A DNA stretch of 64,000 bases from Synergistales bacterium (GTDB lineage: Bacteria; Synergistota; Synergistia; Synergistales; Aminithiophilaceae), in NCBI GenBank assembly GCA_018433595.1, contig JAHDQY010000007.1:62001-126000 (forward strand), read 5' to 3'. Shown here one piece after another: positions 14,312 to 18,768 of this stretch; position 1 is the stretch's first letter; every line of letters begins with the position of its first letter. The translations under genes were made by a program, and so were the position numbers. The notes under the pieces are model-generated. The model was not told where the DNA came from, ran no database searches, and saw only the letters and a list, made by a program, of their open reading frames with translations.

Positions 14312-16071
14312 ATGGCCGATGATGCCGTTGCTGAAGTCAAATCGCGCGTCGATATCGTCGACATCATAGGCGGCTACGTCCCTCTCAGAAAGGCCGGAAA
14401 GAATTATCTCGGCCTCTGTCCCTTCCACGGGGAGAAGACGCCCTCTTTTAACGTCTCGCCTGAACGCCAGACCTATCACTGCTTTGGCTGCGGCAAGGGG
14501 GGAGACGTTTTTTCCTTTCTCATGGAGATCGAGGGGCTGACCTTTCCCGAGGCTCTGGAGCAGCTGGCCCGTCGCGCCGGCGTCACCCTGCGCCGGAGAA
14601 GCTCCTGTCAGACCGTCGGCCTTCGGGATGTCCTCGACGAGGCCCTCTCCTTTTTCCGCTCCTCTCTCGACCTTCCCTCAGGCGAGGTGGGCCGTTCCTA
14701 CCTGGAACGCCGCTTGCTCGGAAAGACGCAGTGGGAGACCTTCGAGTTGGGGTGGGCCCCCCGCGCCTGGGACGGCCTGGCCCGACACCTGGGGAAAAGG
14801 TTCCCGCCGAGGCTCCTCGATGAGAGCGGCGTCGTCATCGAGGGGAAGAAGGGACGTTACGACCGCTTCCGTGGGAGAGTCATCTTCCCCATCCGGGATG
14901 TGACGGGGAAACTCATCGCTTTCGGCGGCCGCCTCGTCGACGGCGACGGGGCGAAATACATCAACAGCCCCGAGAACGATCTCTACAGCAAGAGGCGATC
15001 CCTCTACCTGATCCACCGGGCCCGGCGGGCCATCGTCGAAAAGGGGCGGTCCATCCTCGTCGAGGGCTACATGGATGCCATCCGTCTCCACCTGGCGGGT
15101 TTCACCGAGGCCGTCGCCTCCCTCGGGACGGCTCTGACGGAGGAGCAGGCCTCCATTCTCGGCCGCCTGGCCGACCGCTGCTACATCTGTTACGATGCCG
15201 ACCTCTCCGGACAGGAGGCGACGCTCAAGGGAATGTACCTTCTTCAACGCTCCGGACTCGATGTCCATGTCCTGACTCTTCCCACGGGCAAGGATCCCGA
15301 TGAGCTGCTTTGTCAGCCGGAAGGGGCGGAGGTCTTCCGAAGCGCCCTTGACAGGGCCCTTCCCCTTCTGGCCTATCATCTCTTTCTTCGCAGAGAGGCC
15401 TTTCGTGACCGTCTCCGGCGACGTCGGGCGATTGAGGAGCTGCTTGAGGGGCTTCTCTCCCTTCCCCTTCTTGATATCGCTCCCTTTCTGCCCGATGTCG
15501 CTGCGGCCATGGCGGTGACGCCGCGTCAGCTTCAGCAGGTCCTTGACGACCGGAGAAAGGGTCTTTCTCCGCCGATCCGGAAAGAAGAGGGGCAGAAGGC
15601 GCTTTCCCATGAAGGCAAAAGGGGCCGGAATCGCGTACCTATCGGTAAAGGGGAGGAAGAAACGCTTCGGGACCCCTGGGAGGAAGTGCTCTGCTGGCTT
15701 CTCTGGAGCGATGACCGCCTTCGGACCGAGGCTGACGCCGCGACAGTTCTCCCCCTTCTGCGTGACCCTGTGGCCTCATCGGTCGCCTGCGCCCTCATGG
15801 CCGGCGAGAGCCCGGAAGAGCTGACGTTGCGATGGCTCGAAGCGGGTGAAAGGAAGGCCCAGGCCCTCTTGGCCTCCGGAGGGGATCGTTGTGAACGCCT
15901 TCCCCGGGAGGTTCCAACATGGGACCTGGCCCTTCATGGCCTGAAAGAGAGGCATTGCAAAGAGGAGTACGAGAGATTGAAGGCTCGGATGACCGCCAAC
16001 AGGGCCACGGCCCAGGAAGTGGCGCGATACTACGAGCTTGCGGGAAGGCTGAAGGGAGGAAAAAACACTTA

Positions 16072-16072
<1 letters not shown>
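14312..16072 (+). CDS. dnaG: DNA primase DnaG
   Basis: A 586-residue primase that makes RNA primers at the replication fork. The zinc-binding domain ligands are C36, H39, C57 and C60 ([11 protein letters not shown] and [10 protein letters not shown]). The TOPRIM core has [30 protein letters not shown] and PTGKDPDE. The C-terminal helicase-binding region after ~420 is more divergent. GTG 14303 lies within the ribosome site (GGGAGGTGA), so ATG 14312 is preferred. Its stop overlaps the rpoD start (TAATG), the classic dnaG-rpoD pairing of the macromolecular synthesis operon; rpsU is not adjacent. Confidence 0.96.
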
Positions 16073-17235
<1,163 letters not shown>

Positions 17236-17286
17236 TTTTCCCACCCTCGGGTACCTTCGCAGGGAAGAAAACACAGGAGGTGACAG

Positions 17287-18414
17287 ATGATGAGAAAAGC
17301 CGTGGTCAGAGATATCCTGGATCGATTCACCCCGGCCTCCGCTGTCCTTTCTCTTTATGGAGATACCGACAGAAGCCGCCGCAGCGCTAAGGAGATCGTC
17401 ATCGCTCTGAAAAACCTCAATCGCCAGGCTCTCCGTCTTGTTGAAGATTGGCCTCGAGAGGATCAGGAGAAAATGCGGAACCTGCTGGAAGGGGTTTTCC
17501 CCCGGGTCGAAGACCTGTCGACGGATCTGCCCAGGGGATGGTCCTTTTTCATCAGTCCCGAGGTGCCGGCCTTCTCTCTCCCCTTGCCCGCCTCCGTTGC
17601 AGCTGAGGCGAGCCTGAATGAGAGGCCCCGCCTTTTCCCGCTGATTCAGGCCCTCTCTCCTTTCAAAAAGACGCTGGTTATCGTCGTCGAGAATCGTTCC
17701 GTATCCTTTTACCATCGTTACGGTGCGGAGTTGGAGCTTCTTCTGCGCCATGTCGTCGAGTTTCCCTCCAGGATCAAGGCCGGCGGCCGCTACGGCATGG
17801 AGGAGCGCCGTATCGAGCGTCGTGCCGAAGAAGAGACGGGGAGGCTCCTTCGGGAGACGGCGGCCGAGGCCAAAGGCCTCTTCGGCGATCGCCTCTTCAA
17901 GAGAATCCTCGCCGCCGGCTCGAAGGAACTGACGGCACCGCTGCTGACGCTCCTTCGGGAGCAGCTTCCGATGGAGGAGGTCGACCTTCTTCCCGAATCG
18001 CCTGAAAGAGGGGAAAGCTCCCTTCAAGCGACACTCGATGAGTGGGCCCAGGCGCGATTCTGGCAGGAGGGCGAGGCTCTTGTCGCGCGGATCCTTTCCG
18101 AGGCTCCCAAGGGAGGACTTGCCGCTGCGGGAATGAGGGCGGTTCTTGCCGCGTCGAACCGGGGCGCGATCCATCAGCTTGTCCTTGAAGAGTTCGAGCC
18201 CCGCAGCGGAGTCCGCTGCACCCGCTGCGGGGCCCTTGGCCTGGACGAGGCGACCTGTCCTCTCTGCGGCCTTGAGACGAAGCCGGAGAAAGATCTCCTG
18301 GAGGCCCTGATCCAGCAGGTCCACGGTAAGGACGGGGAGACGCTCGTTCTCGGCCGTCCCTCCATCCTTCGCGAGTGGGAGGGCATCGGCGCTCTGTTGC
18401 GCTTCGTCCTTTGA
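17287..18414 (+). CDS. Bacterial eRF1-like protein (baeRF-type) with zinc ribbon
   Basis: A 375-residue protein that I place with moderate certainty in the bacterial archaeo-eukaryotic release-factor-like (baeRF) group. The N-terminal part reads VLSLYGDTDRS and GWSFFISPEVPAFSLPLP, then a central KTLVIVVENRSVSFYHRYG strand pattern. The C-terminus resembles eRF1 domain 3 and carries two cysteine pairs (CTRCGALG, CPLCG) within the last third. No GGQ motif is visible, so peptide release is not implied; roles in ribosome rescue or hibernation have been suggested for the group. AGGAGG is six bases before ATG 17287. It follows rpoD by 51 bases, probably in the same operon. Confidence 0.72.
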   Translation: MMRKAVVRDILDRFTPASAVLSLYGDTDRSRRSAKEIVIALKNLNRQALRLVEDWPREDQEKMRNLLEGVFPRVEDLSTDLPRGWSFFISPEVPAFSLPLPASVAAEASLNERPRLFPLIQALSPFKKTLVIVVENRSVSFYHRYGAELELLLRHVVEFPSRIKAGGRYGMEERRIERRAEEETGRLLRETAAEAKGLFGDRLFKRILAAGSKELTAPLLTLLREQLPMEEVDLLPESPERGESSLQATLDEWAQARFWQEGEALVARILSEAPKGGLAAAGMRAVLAASNRGAIHQLVLEEFEPRSGVRCTRCGALGLDEATCPLCGLETKPEKDLLEALIQQVHGKDGETLVLGRPSILREWEGIGALLRFVL

Positions 18415-18434: not shown

Positions 18435-18464
18435 TTGATGATGCACCCTTTTTTTTGATATACT
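18435..18464 (+). promoter_or_regulatory. Sigma-70 type promoter of rqcP-eno
   Basis: TTGATG (18435-18440), an 18-base spacer containing a run of eight T, and TATACT (18459-18464), located 32 bases before the rqcP start. It separates rqcP-eno-rex from the dnaG-rpoD group. Confidence 0.66.
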
Positions 18465-18495: not shown

Positions 18496-18768
18496 ATGAG
18501 GGCCGATAAGTTTCTCAAGTTGTCACGGCTCGTCAAACGCAGAACGGTGGCCCAGGAGATGATCGAAGTCGGCGCCGTTCACGTCGACGGTCGTCCGATC
18601 AAGCCTTCGTCTGAGGTCCGTATGGGTGATCTCGTGGAAGTCGCCTATCCCGGACGTATCTTGAGAGTCCTTGTCCTCTGTGACGATGAGGCGGCCCTCA
18701 AGCGGGGCACTGTGGCCTATGAACTGAAGGAGGAGCGTCGGGATGTCCGAAAAGAAGGAGCTTGCTGA
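18496..18768 (+). CDS. rqcP: S4-domain ribosome quality-control factor RqcP
   Basis: A 90-residue protein that is almost entirely one S4 RNA-binding domain: MRADKFLKLSRLVKRRTVAQEMIEVGAV-style wording continuing to KPSSEVRMGDLVEV. It matches B. subtilis RqcP (YabO), which holds the P-site tRNA on stalled 50S subunits during alanine tailing with RqcH; Hsp15 is a close relative and the alternative. I start at ATG 18496, with GGAGG eight bases upstream, rather than TTG 18475. RqcH is not in the window. The gene lies 21 bases before eno. Confidence 0.85.
   Translation: MRADKFLKLSRLVKRRTVAQEMIEVGAVHVDGRPIKPSSEVRMGDLVEVAYPGRILRVLVLCDDEAALKRGTVAYELKEERRDVRKEGAC

Follow-up and report, generated by a model that had tools for sequence, protein, structure and literature searches.

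A Balon-like protein lineage with a predicted zinc ribbon, encoded behind dnaG-rpoD in Synergistota, is a candidate ribosome hibernation factor

The analyzed window, a 64,000-nucleotide stretch of a 2.5-Mb Synergistales genome, carries an open reading frame of 375 codons immediately behind the genes for primase and the primary sigma factor (Table 1). The first-pass annotation had placed this reading frame 51 bases after rpoD, and the gap measured to the rpoD stop codon agreed. The sequence AGGAGGTGACAG precedes the start codon as a good ribosome-binding site; the alternative start given in Table 1 is equally possible and agrees with the same-genus relatives. Alignment with 12 homologues (alignment A1) gave identities of 71 to 76% within the genus and 33 to 38% in other families. 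Because homologues are retained across genera and families, this is more than a chance reading frame. Its G+C content was 0.62, and that of the seven surrounding genes was 0.58 to 0.63.

Table 1. Features of the dnaG-rpoD locus, in positions of the window
Feature	Position	Strand	Remark
dnaG (primase), same run upstream	14312..16072	+	Stop overlaps rpoD start by one base (TAATG)
rpoD (primary sigma factor, regions 1.1 to 4)	16072..17235	+	Open reading frame and family match
Gap between rpoD and the Balon-like gene, 51 bases, with ribosome-binding site AGGAGGTGACAG	17236..17286	+	Without -10-like box
Gene for Balon-like aeRF1-type protein (Pfam baeRF family 10), 375 aa	17287..18414	+	Alternative start 17290
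Codons of the putative peptidyl-transferase-center loop, KAGGRYGMEERRIER; Arg replaces the catalytic Gln of GGQ	17776..17820	+	Alignment
Predicted zinc ribbon in the C domain, CxxC...CxxC (C311, C314, C324, and C327 of 375 aa)	18217..18267	+	Cys in 28/28
Promoter-like site TTGATG-18-TATACT for rqcP, parting the two units	18435..18464	+	Position of -10 box conserved
rqcP/YabO-like S4 protein gene, opening the next unit, outside the unit of the Balon-like gene	18496..18768	+	Family and PDB match

The gene order dnaG-rpoD followed by this gene proved to be conserved. All 13 Synergistota loci with long flanks show the series hppA-dnaG-rpoD-Balon-like gene-S4 gene, then rex-yajC-secD-secF (eno is absent from that series in two loci of family f5), and rpoD lies directly upstream of the Balon-like gene in 16 of 16 Synergistota carriers, with gaps of 35 to 93 bases. 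Two loci of family f7, which encode another Balon type, share none of the dnaG-rpoD neighborhood. The downstream S4 gene had been called rqcP in the first pass, and the name held: the best PDB match of its product was YabO (7aqc_Y, E = 1.3e-11), compared to 2.2e-6 to 7.7e-6 for Hsp15 chains, and the best NCBIfam match was Hsp15, at a score below the Hsp15 cut-off. By the PDB matches, this S4 protein is nearer to RqcP/YabO than to Hsp15.

The signals around the Balon-like gene showed the following features. First, the rqcP gene has a -10 box, TATACT or TATAAT (18459 to 18464 in the window), that is conserved in all 30 genomes checked, the window's own included. A promoter scan of the window found two sites compared to 0.9 expected, barely above chance by itself. 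The position of the box is conserved: its distance to the S4 start is 21 to 46 bases in the carriers (16 of 16) and 24 to 39 bases in the noncarriers (14 of 14). In a shuffle control covering the 16 carriers, the region from -50 to -15 before the S4 gene held a box in 16/16 real sequences compared to 3.1/16 shuffled ones (500 shuffles; maximum, 9). Second, no -10-like box was found within 150 bases upstream of the Balon-like gene start in the window. A -10-like hexamer does occur 15 to 50 bases ahead of the gene in 6 of 16 genomes, where a promoter of its own is conceivable; however, the hexamers differ, and no conserved promoter was found among the 14 genomes compared (all but G003 and G013). 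Third, a consensus scan with a loop limit of 8 bases called no terminator on the forward strand after the Balon-like gene in the window and in locus L010. By eye and folding, a long hairpin with a T run was seen just past the stop codon in five of the six members of the Acetomicrobium family (G034, G020, G027, G040, and G046), and in the sixth (G011) the hairpin is not followed by a run of six T's; this hints at a terminator in that family. Since rqcP keeps its own -10 box whether or not the Balon-like gene is present, the latter reads as the last gene of the dnaG-rpoD operon, with which it would be cotranscribed.

From the neighboring rqcP, the first-pass annotation had suggested that the protein acts on stalled ribosomes. 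This did not hold up when rpoD loci were compared (30 fetched loci out of 40 genomes with a match). Thirteen had the Balon-like gene, 14 had the S4 gene directly after rpoD, and three had neither; rqcP thus follows rpoD in 14 of the 17 loci that lack the Balon-like gene. The fetched rpoD loci of these last three genomes (G010, G019, and G023) lack dnaG, the S4 gene, and the Balon-like gene, and two of the three genomes have the other, Psychrobacter urativorans-like Balon type. Because rqcP follows rpoD in 14 of these 17 noncarriers and has its own -10 box in all 30 genomes checked, its neighborhood with rpoD is older than the Balon-like gene and independent of it, and the closeness of the two reads as incidental. 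A role tied to rqcP was rejected for the same reasons. A broader version of this idea, a Pelota/Dom34-like rescue factor acting with RqcP and RqcH on stalled ribosomes or split 50S subunits, draws on the adjoining RqcP-like gene and on the NFACT_N (RqcH) gene, which the window's genome shares with 39 of 41 relatives. However, RqcH is nearly universal here, whereas the Balon-like gene occurs in only 16 of 185 genomes.

The eRF1-like or baeRF identity proposed from the sequence was upheld by profile search, PDB search, and fold comparison. Among the Pfam families, the best match was baeRF_family10 (PF18854; E = 4.2e-11, 43.7 bits compared to a cut-off of 27.1). This model matched 13 of 13 members scanned at E ≤ 0.01, with the middle domain above the Pfam cut-off. 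The family name is not specific, because PF18854 also exceeded its cut-off in 8 of 14 control genomes, including archaea with aRF1. In a phmmer search of the PDB, the Balon MSMEG_1130 was matched over residues 6 to 372 at E = 8.4e-7, and eRF1 chains appeared only from 0.16. The NCBIfam model for the MSMEG_1130 hibernation factor (NF052288) matched over its full length (E = 2.6e-18), at 66.2 bits compared to a cut-off of 480, and weaker NCBIfam matches were to Rv2629 and aRF1. Of the other two Balon equivalogs, NF052289 scored 32.4 bits compared to a cut-off of 320, and NF052287 gave no match with the window protein. A profile of 13 Synergistota homologues reached MSMEG_1130 at 8e-24 (positions 14 to 372), aRF1 at 2.8e-8, Rv2629 at 6.8e-6, and Pelota at 2.8e-5. 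At E ≤ 0.01, the NCBIfam models found among 13 members were Rv2629 in 13, MSMEG_1130 in 12, aRF1 in 10, and the P. urativorans type in 7. In two Atribacterota members, the aRF1 model scored close to or above the Balon models, so that for these two a closer kinship with Balon than with aRF1 is not clear. Scores this far under the cut-offs of the three characterized Balon groups place the protein, as judged from sequence, in a separate lineage within the Balon superfamily.

Structure models pointed in the same direction. A whole-chain AlphaFold model (10 sequences; mean pLDDT 69.7, with parts of the C domain below 50) was compared with known structures by superposition, including eRF1 and Pelota, and Balon came first, followed by eRF1 and aRF1. 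With Foldseek, the best matches were 8v9l and 8v9j (both Balon; E = 1e-17 and 2e-17), at low whole-chain TM-scores (0.38; rmsd, 16), and eRF1/aRF1 chains came next. With VIA-align, Z was 14.2 for Balon (rmsd, 13.5) compared to 12.9 for the best eRF1 (rmsd, 8.3), and P. urativorans Balon gave 12.5 to 12.9. The C domain modeled alone (mean pLDDT 64.6, the zinc-ribbon region being its best-predicted part) aligned with MSMEG_1130 over 131 of 137 residues at Z = 11.8 and rmsd 4.3; P. urativorans Balon was second at 8.5, and the first unrelated L30e chain was at 7.0. The top Foldseek row for this domain was the aRF1 C domain 3ir9 (E = 1.6e-4). The first-pass annotation had described the architecture of release-factor C-terminal domains. 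The release-factor type stood, but the match is not confined to the C domain and spans all three aeRF1 domains, which the window protein is predicted to have. The middle domains of Pelota also superpose well (Z = 8 to 11; rmsd, 2.5 to 3.5), which would suit a rescue factor. However, the Pelota rows cover only the middle domain and adjacent parts, whereas the Balon and eRF1 rows begin at residues 1 to 5. As the Pelota rows align the middle part only, the absence of the Sm-like N-terminal domain of Pelota/Dom34 from the listing says nothing about that domain. With the rqcP neighborhood independent of the Balon-like gene, rescue seems an unlikely function.

Two features of the sequence set the lineage apart, and both were followed in an alignment of 28 proteins, 16 from Synergistota and 12 from Atribacterota (L105, one more protein of the latter phylum, was left out, as its gene is cut off by the end of the contig). 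First, the catalytic glutamine of the GGQ motif is gone. In the window protein the loop is KAGGRYGMEERR, and an Arg takes the place of the aRF1 Gln. Among the 28 proteins, the residue after [AG]G at this position is W in 17, R in 4, F in 3, L in 2, Y in 1, and V in 1, and Gln in none, in line with the earlier remark that no GGQ was visible. The following column has Q in three proteins among Tyr, Arg, Glu, and Ala and is not conserved. The EE of the loop and the downstream Arg are present in 28/28. The NIKS string is absent in all 28 aligned proteins, six of which were read from the match start and not from the start codon. Four proteins (G004, G013, G034, and G011) do contain a GGQ string, but it lies in the C domain, far from the catalytic loop, and is probably there by chance. 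Second, the cysteines of the zinc ribbon suggested in the first pass are present in all aligned relatives: the four Cys are invariant in 28/28 and would bind zinc, and in the hmmsearch alignment MSMEG_1130 has a Cys-less insert at the same place, which may correspond to the EF-Tu-binding beta-hairpin insert of the Balon C domain.

These features bear on whether the protein might hydrolyze peptidyl-tRNA as an alternative release factor, a role that Burroughs and Aravind (PMC6514570) proposed for baeRF family 10 on account of its well-conserved glutamine. That family is the best Pfam match, the zinc ribbon resembles that of archaeal aRF1, and 3ir9 leads the Foldseek rows for the C domain. However, with no Gln at the GGQ position and no NIKS, peptide release by the lineage is unlikely, and this reading, rejected on the loop residue, seems to us very improbable. 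The loss of Gln is shared with Dom34, a further point that a rescue factor would accommodate.

The lineage was compared with known systems. Like the Balon of the MSMEG_1130 type (8v9j, 8v9l; NF052288), it has the three-domain aeRF1 fold, near whole-chain collinearity, and no GGQ glutamine. Unlike it, the lineage has a four-Cys ribbon, and the two share about 20% identity in the fold alignment. The P. urativorans Balon (8rd8, 8rdv, 8rdw; NF052287) belongs to the same fold class and gives only a weak sequence match. With aRF1, the lineage shares the domain order and the C-domain zinc ribbon (PMC6514570; 3ir9), and unlike aRF1 it lacks the loop Gln and NIKS. The middle domain is shared with baeRF family 10, for which that source reports a well-conserved Gln and, on that ground, possible activity; this Gln is absent in 28/28 proteins here. 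The same source suggested that the insert of two strands found in many baeRFs is a degenerate zinc ribbon. By sequence, the lineage is thus the reverse mix of the published family 10, with the ribbon present and the Gln lost.

The lineage profile matched 19 of 185 Synergistota genomes, with 16 full-length members and three weak matches in family f7. Acetomicrobium hydrogeniformans (L037) is one of the carriers. All three f7 matches hit the P. urativorans-like model, and the protein of one of them (L014) is of that type by Pfam and NCBIfam. P. urativorans-like Balons (NF052287, E ≤ 4e-30, all below the family cut-off) were seen in 19 of 185 Synergistota genomes, including L014 and L113 to L124. 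No genome had both types (16 and 19 of 185); a mutual exclusion of the two was considered and rejected, being not significant by our own arithmetic and confounded by kinship. Thirteen of 41 sampled Atribacterota genomes (Caldatribacterium) also matched. A contig scan with two short peptide patterns gave 10 loci, and it hardly sampled phyla beyond these two. There was no sign of mobile copies at the sensitivity used: tblastn with two lineage members found no match in plasmid records, and none of 18 pattern matches in viral contigs was confirmed. The tree of the 28 proteins groups each phylum, and within Synergistota each of the four families, in one clade, every such clade being starred, and the gene has been inherited vertically within its carrier families. 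On an RpoD tree of 30 genomes, at least four gains or losses are needed (bootstrap, 3 to 4; mean of 10.0 after shuffling, with none of 500 reaching so low a number), and only one is forced when well-supported branches alone are counted. A single early arrival behind rpoD, followed by several losses, is the simplest history, since the alternative, several insertions at the same site, is less probable.

The surroundings differ in Atribacterota. None of 12 other window genes, dnaG and rpoD included, matched the 13 short Atribacterota loci. The longer loci (7 of 7) place the gene behind a putative mtnA, and four of them have an FGGY-type kinase gene directly after the Balon-like gene (both named by eye). 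A purine-nucleoside-phosphorylase-like gene also lies near the Balon-like gene in loci L107 to L112 and L106, the gene of L106 having been placed in its locus by coordinates from a separate search. These loci are informative about a further possibility, that the protein works away from the ribosome, as a regulator of the sigma factor or of its own operon. This is suggested only by its place behind rpoD, fixed in 16 of 16 carriers. The location behind the putative mtnA, away from dnaG and rpoD, argues against a general link to sigma factors, and the loop and Arg positions predicted to touch rRNA are retained; we therefore give this possibility hardly any weight. A link to sigma genes in general is not without precedent, because published Balon neighbors include alternative sigma-70 factors (PMC10901736, figure 2 legend).

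The 2024 description of Balon (PMC10901736) was based on three proteins from two genera-groups. By that account, Balon occupies the A site in vacant as well as translating ribosomes, regardless of mRNA, has neither NIKS nor GGQ, and uses its C domain to associate with EF-Tu(GDP); its genes are typically located in stress operons, and HPF is its usual partner. Because the Balon fold is shared, Gln and NIKS are lost, and an HPF gene is present in the window's own genome, the protein is probably a hibernation factor acting by A-site occupation, from a separate zinc-ribbon lineage. The nearest characterized proteins are the Balon hibernation factors, and hibernation is probably the better reading compared with rescue. 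Counted against it were the low NCBIfam scores, the competing aRF1 model, the unspecific PF18854 match, and an operon of housekeeping rather than stress genes.

As a hibernation factor, the protein would, once growth stops, enter the A site of ribosomes that are vacant or stalled, without reading mRNA. Its N domain would lie near the decoding center, and the middle domain would place the loop [AG]G[W/R/F/Y/L/V]xGxEExR at the peptidyl-transferase center, where it should be unable to hydrolyze peptidyl-tRNA because the GGQ glutamine is lost. The C domain, with the ribbon replacing the insert of Balon, would face the GTPase center and may hold EF-Tu(GDP). Supplied from the dnaG-rpoD operon, the protein would track the growth machinery and not a stress regulon, and its use would be gated by nucleotide state or EF-Tu. 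A more tentative idea, which we consider possible but rather doubtful, is that the lineage is a living intermediate on the way from aRF1 to Balon, in which the ribbon is the raw material of Balon's EF-Tu-binding hairpin. The intact ribbon would then dock EF-Tu or link ribosome parking to zinc, and the coupling to dnaG-rpoD would keep the factors in proportion.

No account of this lineage was found in the open literature on Balon, baeRF (among the matches listed), and Rv2629, nor was a paper found on a hibernation factor in Synergistota, and a linkage of the Balon type to the primary sigma gene and primase was not found in the literature searched. What is new is that the zinc ribbon is kept while the Gln is lost, together with the housekeeping operon as context. 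If the intermediate idea is true, a hibernation factor, primase, and sigma-70 would be kept in proportion, and an off-switch would be ready-made already in the growth phase. Fixed behind rpoD in Synergistota and lying in an unrelated operon in Atribacterota, the lineage offers a natural test case for the change of a release factor into a parking factor. It also bears on the origin of the EF-Tu contact and on the question whether growth genes can take the place of stress genes in the wiring of hibernation.
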